Of a stretch of DNA of 45,466 nt, positions 37,148 to 45,466 are shown one piece after another. Numbering within the stretch: position 1 is the stretch's first letter; each line of letters starts with the position of its first letter. Made by a program: the position numbers and the translations under genes. Under the pieces are notes generated by a model. That model was given only the letters and a program-made list of their open reading frames with translations. It ran no database searches and had not been told where the DNA came from. The stretch comes from Deltaproteobacteria bacterium. Its GTDB lineage: Bacteria > Myxococcota > JADLHZ01. The stretch spans positions 1 through 45,466 of the forward strand of contig JADLHZ010000014.1 in assembly GCA_020848545.1 (NCBI GenBank), in the 5' to 3' direction.

Positions 37148-37221
37148 TGGGGAATCGTTCAATGGTAGGACAGCAGACTCTGAATTTGCTTATCTAGGTT
37201 CGAGTCCTAGTTCCCCAACCA
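37148..37221 (+). tRNA. tRNA-Gln (anticodon CUG), integration site
   Basis: 74 bases with encoded CCA. Acceptor TGGGGAA pairs with TTCCCCA; the anticodon arm GCAGA-CTCTGAA-TTTGC gives anticodon CTG; the T-loop reads GGTTCGAGTCC. The gene is intact. Its last 23 bases (37199-37221) are repeated with one change at 43297-43319 and more diverged at 45333-45355, which marks it as an attachment site of mobile elements. Confidence 0.95.
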
Positions 37222-37305
37222 TCTAACTTCCCGCCAGCATTGAAGAACGCGATCGCCTGTAACAGGCTGTAAGTTCGGGTCGGAATTGAGCGCGGTTTTC
37301 GGGTC
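37199..37305. repeat. attL-like repeat: tRNA-Gln 3' end plus left end of element 1
   Basis: 107 bases: the last 23 bases of tRNA-Gln and the following ATCTAACTTCCCGCC segment to about 37305. They match 43297-43408 with five substitutions and a 5-base indel (near 37266). In reverse complement the equivalent stretch at 43297-43408 has an open frame (AIAFFNAGGKLDGWG); here the 5-base deletion breaks it. Confidence 0.85.
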
Positions 37306-37696
37306 CAACACCACGAGATTTCTTCCGCCCGGGCTCGTCGGGCTCAAAGAGATTGGCGCTCGCTACTTCAAGCACTTCGCGTTCACGAACCGCTCGATCC
37401 ACAAAGAAGTCCTGCGCCTGACGCTGCTCTGCGAGCTCTTTGGCGACACCGAGGTCGCCTCCGCGATCGACGAGGTGATGCGCACCGGCCACGTTGGCGG
37501 CGAGTACGTCGAGTTCGTCTTGCGCCAAAAACGAGGCCTCGTTCCGAACGCGACGCCGCTGCGCCTCGGCAACGACGAGCTCGACGCGCTCAGCCTCAGT
37601 GCACCCAACCTCGCGCGCTACGACGACGAATGCGCCGCACGCATGACGAGGGACCCAGGCCCATTACCGGCAAACGCCGACGGAGAGAACGCATGA
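37286..37696 (+). pseudogene. istA: IS21-family transposase IstA, C-terminal fragment
   Basis: The plus frame encodes only the end of an IstA transposase: KEVLRLTLLCELFGDT, GHVGGEYVEFVLRQKRG and a final LSAPNLARYDDEC, the usual C-terminal region. The DDE catalytic core and N-terminal HTH are missing. The fragment begins directly where the att repeat ends (about 37306), so the upstream part was lost at this junction. It overlaps istB by 4 bases (ATGA), the normal istAB arrangement, which supports the call. Confidence 0.75.
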
Positions 37697-38439
37697 CGAA
37701 CGACGACGACATCTCGCTGCTGATCGACAAGCTCAAATGGCTCCGCCTCCCTGGCATGGCCGAGGCGATCACGGCCCTGCTCGAGCTGCAGCGGAAGAAA
37801 AATCTTTCTACGCTCGAAGTGCTCGGGCGCCTCTGCGACGACGAGAAACAAAGCCGCATGGGCCGCGCCGTCGAGCGCCGCATCCACGCCGCGCGCTTTC
37901 CGGAAGTGAACACGATCGACCAGTTCGATTTCGACTTCGAGGCGGGCAGAAAGAAAATGCGCGCGCGGTACATCGCGCTTCATGACCTCAGCTTCATCGA
38001 CAAAGGCATCAACCCGCTGTTCATCGGCACGCCCGGCACGGGCAAGACGTTTCTCGCCCGCAGCCTCGCGTACAAAGCCTGCCAGTCGAACCGCCGTGTC
38101 GTGTGCACGTCTGCGCCGCGCATGCTCAACGAGCTTCACGGCGCAGAGCTGCACGGCTCGCTCGATAAGGCGCTGCGCCGCTATGTGAAGGCCGACCTGT
38201 TGCTCATCGATGACTTCGCCGTGCTCGCGATGGACCCGGCGCAGGCGAAGCTCGCCTTCTCCGTGATCTCCGATCGCTACGAATATCGGCGCTCAACGGT
38301 GATCACCACCAACCGCGTGTTCAAGGACTGGCCGAAGGTCTTCCCCGACGCGCTCAACGCCGAGGTCATTGCCAAGCGGCTCACCGAACGCTGCGAACAC
38401 TTCGTTCTCGACGGGAGGCCGTTCATCGCCACGAAATGA
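37693..38439 (+). CDS. istB: IS21-family helper ATPase IstB
   Basis: 248 residues from ATG 37693, normal length for IstB, the AAA+ ATPase that helps IstA transpose. Walker A is GTPGTGKT (about residue 113-120) and Walker B LLLIDDFAVL; a sensor-like ITTNR is present. The gene looks intact, but without a full IstA it should not move the IS by itself. Confidence 0.95.
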   Translation: MTNDDDISLLIDKLKWLRLPGMAEAITALLELQRKKNLSTLEVLGRLCDDEKQSRMGRAVERRIHAARFPEVNTIDQFDFDFEAGRKKMRARYIALHDLSFIDKGINPLFIGTPGTGKTFLARSLAYKACQSNRRVVCTSAPRMLNELHGAELHGSLDKALRRYVKADLLLIDDFAVLAMDPAQAKLAFSVISDRYEYRRSTVITTNRVFKDWPKVFPDALNAEVIAKRLTERCEHFVLDGRPFIATK

Positions 38440-39523: not shown

Positions 39524-42394
39524 TCATTGGCGAGGGACCGACAGAACGAAGCTCGACCACGGATGCGCCGCCCGCAAAGTGGGGTTCTGCCTTCCCTCGG
39601 ACATCGCCCCTACACGCTCGGTGACGTAGTCAGCCAGGGTGCGCACGTTGACCCCACCTTCCTCCGTGGCGCCAGGGTTTTTCAGGGCGTCGAGAACGGC
39701 CTTGGTGAAGAAGCCGTTCTTGAACTCGCTCGACTCGAAAGACAGCTCATCGCCGCCCGACGACGACAGCACGGTGGCTCCAAGCTCCACTTGCAAGGTT
39801 GCGAGCGTGACGTGCCGCGTTGCACGAAGAGACTCGCGGGTCGACGTTCCGATCGTTTTCGAGCGCATACCCCGTGTGAGCGTCGTCGCGGGCGCTGCAT
39901 GCGTTGGGAATCGATAGTCATCGGTGACGAGACGTGCGTTCGCTTTGACGCTGGAAGGCTGGCCACCCGAATGGCAGGTGTCGAGCAGCAGCAGGCGGTG
40001 GCGGGCGTTGGTCTTGGCGAACAGCTCGCTCAACTCTTGCAGCGCGAAGCCGCGTTCTTCGGGGCGGTCGATGGAAACATCGTGGGTGGCATAATAGTAA
40101 CGGCCGGTCGCGGTGACGAAGCCGTGGCCGGCCAAGAAGACGACGACTGCGTCTCCCGGGCCAGCGTTCGCAAAAAAGGCCGCGCTGCTGGCGATCGCTT
40201 CTCGGGTGACCGCGCCGTCGAGAAGTGTCTTCTTTCGCACCGCAGAAAACTTGGTGCTGTCGCCGAGCGCCTCCGCGAGGTCGGCCGCATCCTTGGCGGC
40301 GTAGTCGAGGGCGAGCGCAGGATCGTCGTAACGCGAGACACCGATGGCGAGCACATGGAGCGTGGGTTTGCCTCGGTCGCTCGGCGCGACGAGCTCGATG
40401 CTCAGAGTGTCGGACGCGGTGTGTGCGCCGCTCGCCGTCTCTCCCTCGATCTGGATCGCGTTCGGCCCTGGCAGCAACTGGAGCTCGACCGTCGCGCTCG
40501 TCGTGTTCTTCACCGCGCGTCGAACGCTGATGCCGTTGATACGAACGTGCACCGCCACGAGCGGCACCGGCGACTCCACCGTCAAGGCAGAGCTCGCGTT
40601 TTTCGTCAGCACGTCCGGCCATCGCCCGAGCGTCGGCTGCGCCTCGGTCATCGGGCGCATGGCGCGTCGCTCGTGTGCGAGACGATAGGCGTCGACGAGG
40701 GCGGTGTTGCGCGAGCCGATTCGAGCGAGGACCAAGTCTGGTCGCTGCCGAGCTCCTTCGAGCTCCGCGAGCGGCCGCACCCGCTCGCCGTCGCGTACGG
40801 ACATGAAGCGGTCGGCGCTCCCTTCGCTGACGTAGTCACCTTCCGGCGTATACGCGATCCACGCGCCCAGCGTGTCGGCAACGAAAGTGGCGAGCAATCT
40901 CTGGGAGGGAACGTCCCAGAGCTTGCTGGTCGCGTCGTGGCTCGTGGTCAGGAGACGTCGTCCGTCCTTGCTCAAGCTGTGAGTGATGACGGGGGCCGTG
41001 TGGCCGACGAAGACGAGCGGCGCGCCGCTCATCGGTTTCAAGCAAAAGTCCCTGTCGTCGACACAAACGGCGCTGACGAGACGAGACTTCGGAGCGAGCT
41101 CGGGATGAGACTGCTTGCTCAACGCTCGCCACAGCTCGTCGCACGGCTGGTGCGCATCCTTGTAGAAGCCGTTTTCGAGCGTGACCTCGGCGGGCTCCTC
41201 TTTTCCGTACGACCACAGCGTGGTCGCAAACCGGTCGCCATTCTTCCACTCGGCCGCGAGGACGTGCACGCCGTCCTCGTGCATGCAGAGCTTTCTGAAG
41301 GGCCTACTTTGCGGTTGGGTCTTCGTGAAGCTCGCGGTCGCCTTCTGCACGTCCACAATCGATTGCGCAAAGCCGTCGAGCATGAGCGCGAATCGCCCAC
41401 CGACGAAAGGATACAGGCGCAGTGGATCGCGCAGGCGGTTGCGCTGTAGGTCTGCGAAGTTTGCCGCGGCAAACGACTCGCGCAACTCGGAGACGTTCCA
41501 GAGCCGGGCAGAGCGCGGACTCGCGACCGCAAGCAAGACGTCCCCTTCGTCGTTGAAGCTGACTGCTGGCGCCTCCGTGACCGCAGCGGTGAAGCGCTCG
41601 CTGCCAGCGCCGAGCACCCGATCCCAGACGAGCGTCTGGTTGTTGGCCACGCATGTGATCCATCGCGCGCCGTGCGGCCGGCAGTTCTCGTACTGCATGC
41701 CGTCGACGAGCATCCTGCGCGGGAGCGGCGCGCCGGCAAGCGAGCACAGAGGCGCGATGGGGTCGCTTGCAGGAACCGAAGAGCACTTGTTCGATACGCG
41801 AGGTGTCGGGTTTCCTGAGGAGAGATCGAAGACGTCGAGCCGCGTCGGCCCCTCGGCGGCGGCGAACGCTACAGCGACGAAGCGTTCGTCCATCGAAAAG
41901 GTGATGAGATGTGGAGTGCCCGCTGCACTTAGCGAAACGCGCTTGCGTTCCTTGGCGTCCATCACGAGCGCCACAACGAGCGTGCCGCTCTTTTCGCCTT
42001 CGGCTTGCTCTACCCACGCGATCTTCGCCCCGCTCGTGGAGACGGCGAAGCGATCGCCTACACGAAGATCGCCCACGCGCTTTCGCAGAGGGCCGGCGCG
42101 ATCGAAGATCCAGACCTCGGTGTCGCTCGCGCCGGCGACGATCTGTCCGTCCGGGCTGAACGTCACGACGTTAGGTCTGTGGGCCATGTGCATGGAGCGA
42201 AGGAAGAGTCGCCGGCGAAAGTCCCAGACATCGAGAGCTCCGCCCCGCGCCCTGACGTTCATCTGTCCCGCGGCGGCGTAAAACTCAGCCGCGGCGCTGA
42301 TCGCGGCGTCGTCCGTCCGGCCGCGCTTCGGCGCGAAGACGAAGGTCGGAGCATCCGCGACCGAGGTGACGACCCATAGAAGGGATAGGAACAT
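39524..42394 (-). CDS. secreted WD40-caspase (peptidase C14) protein
   Basis: 956 residues from ATG 42394, chosen because MFLSLLWVVTSVADA is a signal peptide; a TTG at 42484 overlapping the brnA stop would add 30 residues before it. Residues about 20-560 form WD40-like blades (FSPDGQIVAGASDTEVWIFD, LSKDGRRLLTTSHDATSKLWD). A beta-rich linker follows (about 560-670), then a caspase domain: LHVLAIGVSRYDDP, His757 in FLAGHGF and Cys807 in LLLDTCHSGG, 50 residues apart, a complete dyad. Known: bacterial caspase-like proteases act in signalling, cell death and defence; WD40 often gates them. A signal peptide would place this one outside the cytoplasm, unusual for phage defence. Main cargo of element 1. 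Confidence 0.88.
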   Translation of the reverse strand: MFLSLLWVVTSVADAPTFVFAPKRGRTDDAAISAAAEFYAAAGQMNVRARGGALDVWDFRRRLFLRSMHMAHRPNVVTFSPDGQIVAGASDTEVWIFDRAGPLRKRVGDLRVGDRFAVSTSGAKIAWVEQAEGEKSGTLVVALVMDAKERKRVSLSAAGTPHLITFSMDERFVAVAFAAAEGPTRLDVFDLSSGNPTPRVSNKCSSVPASDPIAPLCSLAGAPLPRRMLVDGMQYENCRPHGARWITCVANNQTLVWDRVLGAGSERFTAAVTEAPAVSFNDEGDVLLAVASPRSARLWNVSELRESFAAANFADLQRNRLRDPLRLYPFVGGRFALMLDGFAQSIVDVQKATASFTKTQPQSRPFRKLCMHEDGVHVLAAEWKNGDRFATTLWSYGKEEPAEVTLENGFYKDAHQPCDELWRALSKQSHPELAPKSRLVSAVCVDDRDFCLKPMSGAPLVFVGHTAPVITHSLSKDGRRLLTTSHDATSKLWDVPSQRLLATFVADTLGAWIAYTPEGDYVSEGSADRFMSVRDGERVRPLAELEGARQRPDLVLARIGSRNTALVDAYRLAHERRAMRPMTEAQPTLGRWPDVLTKNASSALTVESPVPLVAVHVRINGISVRRAVKNTTSATVELQLLPGPNAIQIEGETASGAHTASDTLSIELVAPSDRGKPTLHVLAIGVSRYDDPALALDYAAKDAADLAEALGDSTKFSAVRKKTLLDGAVTREAIASSAAFFANAGPGDAVVVFLAGHGFVTATGRYYYATHDVSIDRPEERGFALQELSELFAKTNARHRLLLLDTCHSGGQPSSVKANARLVTDDYRFPTHAAPATTLTRGMRSKTIGTSTRESLRATRHVTLATLQVELGATVLSSSGGDELSFESSEFKNGFFTKAVLDALKNPGATEEGGVNVRTLADYVTERVGAMSEGRQNPTLRAAHPWSSFVLSVPRQ

Positions 42395-42480
42395 CTTTGG
42401 CTTGTACCATAGACACGAGAACTCAGGCGCAACCGCGTAAGCCGCGCCGCGCGCCCGCGTCGCCGAGATCGAAATCGCCG

Positions 42481-42738
42481 TCAACCCGCCCGTTGCATCT
42501 CCTCGCGAACGATGTCGCGAATTTCGTCGCGCAGGGCACGCGGTGAAGAAGACATGCGCTCGCGCAAGAGCATGTTCAGCAGCGTCTGATACCCGATGCC
42601 GCGCTTCTCAGCCTCGGCGTTGAGCCACGTGAGCACCTCGGCGTCGAGGCGGATCGTCTTCAGCACCTTCGCCTTCTTCGAAAGCACCGCGCCGCGCCGC
42701 TTCACCTTCATCCGCTTCAAGTCATATTCCTTCTTCAT
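42481..42738 (-). CDS. brnA: BrnA-type antitoxin
   Basis: 85 residues from ATG 42738. Begins MKKEYDLKRMKVKRRGAVL, then KTIRLDAEVLTWLNAEAE, the ribbon-helix-helix N-terminal strand and helix typical of BrnA. Known: it binds BrnT and represses the operon. It overlaps the upstream brnT by 17 bases, the usual toxin-first order. Confidence 0.85.
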   Translation of the reverse strand: MKKEYDLKRMKVKRRGAVLSKKAKVLKTIRLDAEVLTWLNAEAEKRGIGYQTLLNMLLRERMSSSPRALRDEIRDIVREEMQRAG

Positions 42739-43000
42739 ACTGCTTCCTTTCTCGCTTCGTCGCCTGGCGCGCCGAGATGATCCGGATCGTCTCGCCCTCC
42801 CGTTCCGTATGCACCACCAAGATCAACCGCTGCCGGTACGAGTGACCGATGGTCAGCTCTCGCACCTCGGTGTAGTGGCCGTCGTCCTCGAACGTCACGG
42901 CGAGCGGGTCCTGCAAGGCAGACACGGCCTCGTCGAACGAGACGCCGTGCTTCTTGAGGTTTGATTCGGCCTTCTTCTCGTTCCATTCGACGTTCAACAA
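42722..43000 (-). CDS. brnT: BrnT-type ribonuclease toxin
   Basis: 92 residues if started at TTG 43000, about the family length. No ATG exists near the start; GGAG (43014-43011) lies 10 bases before this TTG, and a second TTG follows at 42997. BrnT marks: VEWNEKKAESNLKKHGVSFDEA, DPLAVTFEDDGH, then ILVVHTEREGETIRIISARQATKRERKQYE. Known: a RelE-like ribonuclease neutralised by BrnA. The weak TTG start may keep toxin below antitoxin. Confidence 0.85.
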   Translation of the reverse strand: MLNVEWNEKKAESNLKKHGVSFDEAVSALQDPLAVTFEDDGHYTEVRELTIGHSYRQRLILVVHTEREGETIRIISARQATKRERKQYEEGI

Positions 43001-43035
43001 GTGTAGTTTACTCCGTAAATACAAAGTAACAACAG

Positions 43036-43374
43036 CTATTTCAGCAGCCGAACGACCGCTTCGAGGATGGTGAGCGCCTCTGCTCGGTCGCCAACATCGA
43101 GCCGAGCAAGCGCCTGCTCGGCGAGCCCGCGGGCGAGACTTGTGACGATTGTGACAGTGCTACGCCGAGACGGCTCGACAGGGCTTTCGACGGTCATCGA
43201 GCCCGATCGCACCTCCCCTTCAACATCGCCGACATGCGTTTCACACGGCGAAATACGGGTCGAAACGGCTTTCGGAAAATCGCCGTCCGGAGCCCTTCGA
43301 GTCCTACTTCCCCAACCATCTAACTTCCCGCCAGCATTGAAGAACGCGATCGCCTGTAACAGGTTGTGTAACAA
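43036..43374 (-). pseudogene. integrase-tail-like ORF reading through the att core (right end of element 1)
   Basis: The frame begins in the left-end sequence of element 2 (LLQAIAFFNAGGKLDGWG), crosses the reversed tRNA 3' end (SRTRR), and continues into element 1 as HVGDVEGEVRSGSM, then ESPVEPSRRSTVT and LARLDVGDRAEALTILE. A copy of the second half is at 45070-45333. Across 18 shared codons (SLARGL to LDVGD) eight differ silently and two change the residue, so the protein was under selection. I infer the tail of an integrase with attP inside its gene; the catalytic part is absent. Confidence 0.5.
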
Positions 43375-43408
43375 GTTCGGGTCGGAATTGGCCGCGGTCT
43401 TCGGGTCT
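43297..43408. repeat. att junction between element 1 and element 2
   Basis: 112 bases: GAGCCC from the right end of element 1 precedes TTCGAGTCCTACTTCCCCAACCA (43297-43319), one base off the tRNA-Gln 3' end, followed by the ATCTAACTTCCC left-end sequence as at 37222. It has an extra 5 bases at about 43367. It is both the right boundary of element 1 and the left boundary of element 2. Confidence 0.85.
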
Positions 43409-43671
43409 AGCGTAGCTTAGCTAGAGAGATGAACGTGCGCCGGAAATCGTGCTGCCGCCTGACGAAGAGTGCGTGAAGACGGCGCGACTGATCGAACGCG
43501 CGCTTTTGTATCTTCTGGTGGAAGCGAGGCGTGGAATCGACGAGGCCTGCGCGTTCCGAGATGATCCAATGGCAGCAAAAGCGCAAAAGCAGCAAAGACG
43601 AAGCGAGAAACGGAGGCCGCAGACCCCGCTTCGGTTTCCACATAGTTTCTCGATTCGACCTATTTTTCGGT
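43409..43671. other. intergenic stretch without recognised gene
   Basis: About 260 bases between the att junction and hepT. Short frames exist on both strands, but none carries a motif or a ribosome site I trust, and the composition is more AT-rich near 43550-43680. It may hold integrase debris or the toxin-antitoxin terminator. Confidence 0.4.
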
Positions 43672-44004
43672 TCAGGGAGGCAACGCGTCCAGCATGATGA
43701 TCAACTTCGGAACGTCCATCATCACCGTGTCCCAGAGCCGGTCCTCGTCGACGTTCATGTAGTTGTGCACGATGAAGTGCCGCATCCCGATGATCTGCCG
43801 CCACGGGATCTCCGGGTGCGCGTCGCGGAACGACTCTTCCACCCGCCGCGCAGCTTCGCCGATGATCTGGACGAGGTACGCGAGCGCGAGGCGCAGGTTC
43901 TCGTCGGCGTCGTAGTCTTGCCGCGACTTGCCGGCGAGCTTCACCGTGATCTTCTCAGCGGTGTCGCGCATGTGCCCGATGAAGACGCGATGGTCCTTAG
44001 CCAT
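43672..44004 (-). CDS. hepT: HepT-type ribonuclease toxin
   Basis: 110 residues. The catalytic Rx4HxY motif of HEPN nucleases is present as RHFIVHNY, with the usual upstream LAYLVQIIGEAARRV helix. Known: HepT cleaves RNA and is inactivated by AMPylation of its Tyr by MntA. It lies directly after mntA, overlapping by 8 bases. Confidence 0.92.
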   Translation of the reverse strand: MAKDHRVFIGHMRDTAEKITVKLAGKSRQDYDADENLRLALAYLVQIIGEAARRVEESFRDAHPEIPWRQIIGMRHFIVHNYMNVDEDRLWDTVMMDVPKLIIMLDALPP

Positions 44005-44290
44005 AGAGCGGCTTTGCTTCGGCGAGCACGCGGTCGCGAATGCGGGCGTTGAGCGCCTTCGGGCTCACGAGATCAACACTTCGCCCACCAGCGGCCTTCG
44101 AGAGCTCGTCGGCGATGAAGCCGAGGCCCAGGAAGCCTACGCGCACGTCGGGCTCGAATTCGATCAGCAGATCGACGTCGCTGTCCGGACGGAGTTCGCC
44201 GCGCGCGCCGGAGCCGAAGACGGCCAGGCGCCTGATACGGTGGCGCCGGCACACCTCGCCGATCAGCTCGCGGTCGATCTTCAGCTCCAT
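43997..44290 (-). CDS. mntA: MntA-type nucleotidyltransferase antitoxin
   Basis: 97 residues from ATG 44290 (MELKIDRELIG); the longer frame upstream is not typical. The minimal nucleotidyltransferase motif is FGSGARGELRPDSDVDLLIEF (GS and DxD metal ligands). Known: MntA transfers AMP to HepT. Gene order mntA-hepT and the overlap are as usual. Confidence 0.92.
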   Translation of the reverse strand: MELKIDRELIGEVCRRHRIRRLAVFGSGARGELRPDSDVDLLIEFEPDVRVGFLGLGFIADELSKAAGGRSVDLVSPKALNARIRDRVLAEAKPLYG

Positions 44291-44415
44291 GATTCTCTCA
44301 AGATAGCACGCATGCGCCGGCCTTGTCCCGCCGGAACCCAGCCGCTTGCCCGCCGCCGAATGAGGGGTAGAATCCCGGGATGCCCGACCGAAAGCTAGGC
44401 GCCGCCCATAAGCGC

Positions 44416-44574
44416 TCAATCTACCATCGACGTGAGATCGAGCGGAGCGAGCGGTGTGCGTGCTTCCACTGCTTCGCGGAATTTGCGCCCAGTGGGATCA
44501 AGGAATGGGTGGATGACAACGACACTGCGACCTGACCCAATGACCAGGCGTGCATCGCCAGACGCGGCGCTCAC
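44416..44574 (-). pseudogene. possible C-terminal gene remnant
   Basis: The minus frame ends with RLVIGSGRSVVVIHPFLDP, TGRKFREAVEAR and TPLAPLDLTSMVD, which reads like a genuine protein C-terminus. Upstream it runs into the opposite-strand DUF6714-like gene and loses sense. Family unknown; it may be what is left of a gene replaced by its neighbour. Confidence 0.3.
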
Positions 44575-45069: not shown

Positions 45070-45333
45070 TCATTCGCGAAGCAGCTCCAGAGCGGCATGC
45101 AACAGAGAGCGCGTCACCGCCGCGTCGCCGACATCCAATCGCGCGAGCGCTTGCGCGACGAGCCCACGGGCCAAACTTGTGACGCTTGTGACAGTGCTAC
45201 GCCGAGACGGCTCGACCGGGCTTTCGAGGGCTAAAGGCGACGATCGCAATTCGTCTTCAACGTCGCCGACATGTGTTCCAGGCGGCGAAACACGGTTCGA
45301 AACGTCGCTCGCGGAAACACCGTTCTGAGCCCT
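45070..45333 (-). pseudogene. integrase-tail-like ORF, right end of element 2
   Basis: The frame reads from the third att-like core into NGVSASDVSNRVSPPGTHV, GDVEDELRSS, ESPVEPSRRSTVT and LARLDVGDAAVTRSLLH, ending LELLRE. It is the counterpart of 43036-43296 and the two share a DNA block of about 50 bases with almost no change (45174-45224). No ATG is available, only a TTG inside, so it is probably not a gene on its own. Confidence 0.5.
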
Positions 45334-45355
45334 TCGAGTCCTAGTCCTTCGACCG
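45333..45355. repeat. diverged third copy of the tRNA-Gln 3' end (right boundary of element 2)
   Basis: TTCGAGTCCTAGTCCTTCGACCG against the tRNA end TTCGAGTCCTAGTTCCCCAACCA: 18 of 23 bases match, the first 13 exactly. It is preceded by GAGCCC as at 43291. The ATCTAACTTCCC left-end sequence does not follow, so the array ends here. Confidence 0.65.
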
Positions 45356-45369
45356 CATGAAGATTGCTC

Positions 45370-45407
45370 GTAGCCGTAGGCGTTGACGTCGCCGTCGCCG
45401 TCGCCGG
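45370..45407. repeat. GACGGC-rich intergenic repeat, copy 2
   Basis: GTAGCCGTAGGCGTTGACG followed by three GTCGCC units. Its complement shares an exact 26-base run with 5565-5590. It sits outside the att array, between it and the partial gene at the right edge. Confidence 0.7.
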
Positions 45408-45422
45408 TTTTTTGGGAGTGCG

Positions 45423-45466
45423 CTACGAGGTCATCTTGACGAGCATGGAGACGATGCGATGCAGGA
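45423..45466 (-). CDS. C-terminal end of an unknown gene, cut by the window edge
   Basis: The minus frame reads LHRIVSMLVKMTS and stops with TAG at 45425-45423. The helix resembles the end of four-helix-bundle (S23-type) proteins, but 13 residues are too few to name it. Confidence 0.3.
   Translation of the reverse strand, partial: LHRIVSMLVKMTS

Follow-up and report, generated by a model that had tools for sequence, protein, structure and literature searches.

The window analysed here is the whole of one contig (G000:C14, 45,466 nucleotides) of an 8.0 Mb Myxococcota genome. Its landmark is a tRNA-Gln gene, the only full copy in the genome, whose 3' end supplies an att core that is duplicated at the element ends (37199-37221, 43296-43318, and 45333-45344 plus positions 122-136 of contig C141). 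The stretches that follow cores 1 and 2 are alike (37222-37305 and 43319-43407), as are those that precede cores 2 and 3 (ending at 43295 and 45332). Judged by this sequence layout, the window holds two related elements integrated in tandem in the tRNA-Gln gene, with the following features.

37148-37221, plus strand: tRNA-Gln (CTG), the integration target (ARAGORN)
37199-37221: first att core, the last 23 bases of the tRNA-Gln gene
37222-37305, minus strand: element 1 left arm (int 3' coding side), in which the loss of 5 bases breaks the frame
37630-38439, plus strand: IS21-type IstB gene (PF01695, E=2.4e-52), at the place expected for the element 1 int
39524-42484, minus strand: cargo, caspase/WD40 protein
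42481-43024, minus strand: cargo, BrnT-BrnA
43036-43416, minus strand: open junction frame made of element 2 left arm, core and element 1 tail, stop codon at 43036-43038
43039-43295, minus strand: element 1 right end, P arm plus integrase tail with a predicted C-terminal two-helix hairpin
43140-43155, plus strand: direct repeat TTGTGACgaTTGTGAC, probable arm-type site in the element 1 P arm
43296-43318, plus strand: second core, between the two elements, a copy of the tRNA-Gln 3' end (T-arm) with one mismatch to 37199-37221
43319-43407, minus strand: element 2 left arm, probable P' arm, with tandem TGTAACA/TGTTACA repeats in the 43355-43373 region
43416-43460, minus strand: HxxR box remnant of an Mx8-type integrase, RRQHDFRRTFISLAK (E=7.8e-8), out of frame with the arm
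43672-44419, minus strand: cargo, HepT/nucleotidyltransferase
45073-45332, minus strand: element 2 right end, second tail copy (the tail match spans 45073-45354, 62% amino-acid identity)
45177-45192, plus strand: direct repeat TTGTGACgcTTGTGAC in the element 2 P arm
45333-45344, plus strand: outer (third) core, first half only, TTCGAGTCCTAG, broken by an insertion, with its second half on contig C141

The missing half of the outer core, CTAGTTCCCCAACCA, lies at the start of C141 (122-136), and the C141 sequence before it matches the window end in inverted orientation with 90% identity over 70 bases. We read the sequence that breaks up the outer core, and in which the contig ends, as a probable mobile insertion. 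Its inverted ends and a CTAG duplication of 4 bases lie in window positions 45341-45466 together with C141 1-136, and the contig break falls inside. The cargo of element 1 comprises the caspase/WD40 protein and BrnT-BrnA, and that of element 2 HepT and the nucleotidyltransferase. BrnT-BrnA and HepT/nucleotidyltransferase are toxin-antitoxin-like pairs. We infer that the IstB gene displaced the element 1 int; the one adjacent ORF scanned for istA (37286-37696) gave no match.

The sequence-only reading had described a minus-strand frame that runs from the element 2 left end through the reversed tRNA T-arm into the element 1 tail. This frame was confirmed to be open from 43416 to 43039, with DPKTAANSDPNLLHNLLQAIAFFNAGGKLDGWG on the element 2 side, SRTRR across the core and then the tail. 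The phase that is open through the core is the only one free of stops on either side, and it is open likewise in the second tail. The same frame in the left end at 37222-37305 is indeed broken by a 5-base deletion, which removes one arm repeat and leaves TGTAACAG at 37258-37265. Over 91 codons the two tails differ by 17 silent and 34 replaced codons, and the changes fall on the three codon positions as 22, 20 and 31, which is not clearly uneven. The NG86 dN/dS between the tails is 0.61 (90 codons); taken alone, the first 40 codons give about 1.1 and the 18 codons 57-74 give 0.17. An earlier count of 8 silent and 2 replacement changes, taken as a sign of selection on the protein, is exact for tail codons 57-74 but describes the best stretch only, and with 0.61 for the whole tail it is too weak to stand alone. 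The claim is carried by evidence from other genomes.

A single-sequence structure model of the frame contains helices at residues 84-107 and 111-125, with a block-mean pLDDT of 77-84 from residue 91 onwards and low confidence elsewhere. No significant match to the frame came from GTDB contigs, IMG/VR, phages or plasmids, and searches at order and class level returned matches in the own genome only, which is the sole genome of its class in the set. Weak matches to the frame in distant genomes were ruled out as they are not integrases. The left-arm peptide had no homologue elsewhere, two matches to it in other genomes being rejected as chance.

Nine bases upstream of the element 2 left arm lies the remnant of a catalytic box. 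Translated searches (tblastn) with the integrase of the Myxococcus phage Mx8 and with the intact integrase C44, located at tRNA-Glu in the own genome, both indicated 43416-43460 on the minus strand. A profile of the catalytic box, built from sixteen family members of other genomes and scanned against 10,289 own-genome ORFs, ranked this remnant second (E=7.8e-8), with only the intact C44 integrase above it; a two-sequence full-length integrase profile had missed it. The stretch between the HxxR box and the arm, where the catalytic tyrosine is expected, is missing, and beyond the HxxR box no catalytic domain of the Mx8 family was present in either element. The C44 integrase is the only intact one of the Mx8 type in the genome. 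A near-palindrome, CTAGCGTAGCTTAGCTAG (43405-43422), marks the boundary between the integrase remnant and the conserved arm and is possibly the scar of the deletion. As no integrase is left in either element, the frame is a relic that joins the element 2 arm to the element 1 tail.

In Mx8, integration replaces the 112-residue C-terminus of the integrase by 13 residues (PMC4701971), and the enzyme is reported to be less active or altered afterwards (PMC4701971, PMC6070905). The Mx8 system (AF396866, D86464) probably resembles that of the window in several ways: its integrase is of the same tyrosine integrase family, to judge by the HxxR remnant and by C44 Int (43% identical to Mx8 Int, with the same HDxRRTFISLA box); its int contains attP, with a core formed by the 3' end of a tRNA; and repeats (GTGACAG) lie in both of its arms, as candidate arm repeats do in the window. 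The window differs in its target, which is tRNA-Gln and not of the tRNA-Asp type, in its class of tail, and in its tandem array of two elements whose integrases have both decayed.

A search of 193 genomes of the phylum turned up relatives of the C44 integrase in 46. Named records of the family come from Corallococcus, Enhygromyxa and Hyalangium, which places the phylum as Myxococcota; one intact relative is a tRNA-Asp element of Corallococcus, on contig NZ_JAIQDE010000004.1. Thirty family loci were examined. Just downstream of the integrase and on the opposite strand, 22 of them have an annotated tRNA, and the int frame enters the tRNA 3' end in 20 of these 22. The far core could be located in 12 elements by the DNA repeat alone, which is exact over 21-31 bp in the eleven from other genomes and spans 22 bp with one mismatch in C44. 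When joined through the core, the integrase frame stays open for 82-128 more codons in all 12; in the integrated form it ends 13-36 codons past the core (eight elements tabulated). The integrase phase is the longest of the three in 10 of the 12 (P=5e-4), and the other phases reach 80 codons in 3 of 24 readings. The own genome has further integrases that cross a tRNA gene, namely those of C36 (Thr), C142 (Phe), C9 (Met), C160 (Pro), C56 (Arg) and C151 (Val). Those of C36 (6279, 20118) and C142 (67258, 78013) read antisense through the tRNA, and their joined frames continue past the core for 94 and 62 codons, respectively, with tails unlike the other classes.

The tails of the 12 elements fall into more than one kind. 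A similar short, helical-looking end segment recurs in eight, the G117 and G057 tails resemble that of Mx8, and the G148 and G161 tails resemble each other. A profile of the eight similar tails, from which the window was left out, was scanned against the 10,289 own-genome ORFs and ranked the window tails 2nd and 4th. Without the own-genome C44 tail, the element 1 tail came 1st (E=8e-4) and the element 2 tail 3rd (E=0.22); these E-values are modest, and the training tails are short and alanine-rich. A profile of the hairpin alone was too short to be useful and was dropped. The VIRQSLGV-like motif and the CxxC common to Mx8, G117 and G057 are, on inspection, absent from both window tails. By its sequence, the window tail is of another class than the Mx8 tail, a predicted helical hairpin that is also seen elsewhere in the integrase family.

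We read the window frame as the decayed 3' end of an Mx8-type tyrosine integrase gene that had attP inside it and whose tail changed on integration, with a probability of roughly 85%. The HxxR remnant, the att-crossing relatives and the tail-profile rank all support the earlier proposal that attP lies inside such a gene, and they also supply homologues with a catalytic domain; that proposal needs correcting in that the integrase itself has been lost. In the excised circle, int would not stop at the core (the tRNA-Gln 3' end) but continue into the other end of the element and acquire a long C-terminal tail, so that the Int of an intact tRNA-Gln element would end in a FFNAGGKLDGWG-like stretch plus a window-type tail. 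Integration would cut int at the core and leave a copy that ends in a short tail, antisense from the tRNA. By analogy with Mx8, the long tail would be the mark of the excised state, and the short one coded by the tRNA that of the integrated state. Because int runs through its own attachment site, integration swaps the tail of the enzyme, and this swap may well be, as reported for Mx8, a built-in switch by which integration lowers or retunes the enzyme. What the data show directly is the anatomy, the catalytic remnant, the arrangement across the family and the likeness of the tails; we infer that the tail is translated and affects activity. Since both integrases have decayed and the elements lie in tandem, 43039-43416 fuses the element 2 arm and the element 1 tail by position only. 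Taken by itself, the window is an unremarkable, decayed case of the Mx8 kind.

The conserved ends might instead be attP arm DNA and nothing more, the open frame being incidental in G+C-rich sequence. Most elements carry short tandem repeats flanking the core. In both window tails, TTGTGAC pairs lie in the most conserved tail DNA, two such direct-repeat matches occurred in none of 100 shuffles, and the dN/dS of 0.61 between the copies also suits this explanation. The integrase phase is nevertheless open in all 12 relatives, far past the other phases, and the likeness as protein resides in the last part of the tail, which lies past the repeats. The two roles are moreover compatible. Across the whole set, P and P' repeats match better within an element than between elements (P=5e-5, shuffling); in the window, the repeats of one arm have a one-base difference from those of the other, and they rank 4th and 5th in this pairing test. 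Given such matched repeats, the same DNA probably serves at once as predicted binding site and as coding sequence, and we consider a purely non-coding arm improbable.

Nor is the tail at all likely to be an independent small protein encoded at the element right end. It does stand apart from int when integrated, and element 1 has an internal ATG (GSMTVESP); element 2 has TTA in place of that ATG. In the homologous tail of C44, none of the codons past the core is ATG, GTG or TTG, which argues against a separate gene, and in G092 and G129a start-like codons after the core occur only inside the hairpin. That the junction frame is a working gene, the tandem integration having restored a long tail to the integrase of the outer element, is the least credible explanation of all and can be practically set aside: the junction frame is intact and the tRNA-proximal copy broken, as it would have it, but a frameshift and a deletion separate the frame from the catalytic remnant, itself a single box, and the sole intact Mx8-type integrase of the genome sits at tRNA-Glu. 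A restored tail could still apply to intact tandem arrays elsewhere.

A second integrase family, of the C9 type, extends the att-crossing arrangement. It has matches in 68 of the 193 genomes, and the sample comprised the own C9 element, with cores at 41556 and 45899 of its contig (G000:C9), and ten other elements. Six could be tested, each having both a far copy of the core and an Int frame that runs unbroken to the core: C9, G073, G095 (where the 19-bp repeat is weak and no tRNA is annotated), G123, G049 and G091. All six joined Int frames lead into an HTH domain of the excisionase type, which lies 56-89 codons from the repeat start in the five other genomes; TIGR01764 scores above cut-off in five and below it in G091. 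From a TTG near the core to the HTH, G091 has no start-like codon. As for the rest of the sample, the Int frame of G122 stops before the core although a far core was found, G100 and G150 end early with no repeat seen, and G099 and G109 cross a tRNA, their far core not being found. On the own-genome contig C21 (14487), a tRNA-Pro core precedes an HTH of this kind, which lies in the phase of the C160 Int, with TIGR01764 just below cut-off. In only 4 of the 6 does the Int phase exceed the other two in length (P=0.1), so the argument here is the domain at the frame end and not openness.

These observations suggest that the Mx8-type att-crossing switch is common in the phylum, and that it occurs at many different tRNA genes and in two integrase families or more. 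We give about even odds to a broader proposal: integrase genes of the phylum would in general cross attP, the tail that they exchange would act as a control domain, and Int and the Xis-like domain would form one protein only in the circle. Integration would part the two, and the state of the DNA would thus set the make-up of the recombinase. No description of an integrase-excisionase fusion formed at attP was found in the open-access literature.

In fuselloviruses of the SSV type, integration splits the integrase gene. That gene, like the one proposed here, extends across attP (PMC4383910); these are archaeal viruses, however, and the window-type gene when integrated would keep its catalytic part and change its tail. 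Streptococcal ICEs in rumA also have att inside the integrase gene, which gives the excised form a different C-terminus (PMC4701971), but they use a serine recombinase and a protein-coding target. Att sites within the cognate integrase gene have been described 'in very few integrative elements', Mx8 being named among them (PMC4701971). In this phylum, att-crossing is apparently common, not rare, and the swapped tail of one family is a recognisable DNA-binding domain. The wider pattern in the relatives, above all the HTH tails, merits attention more than the window itself, and the choice of such elements between integration and excision becomes testable in cultivable hosts such as Corallococcus.
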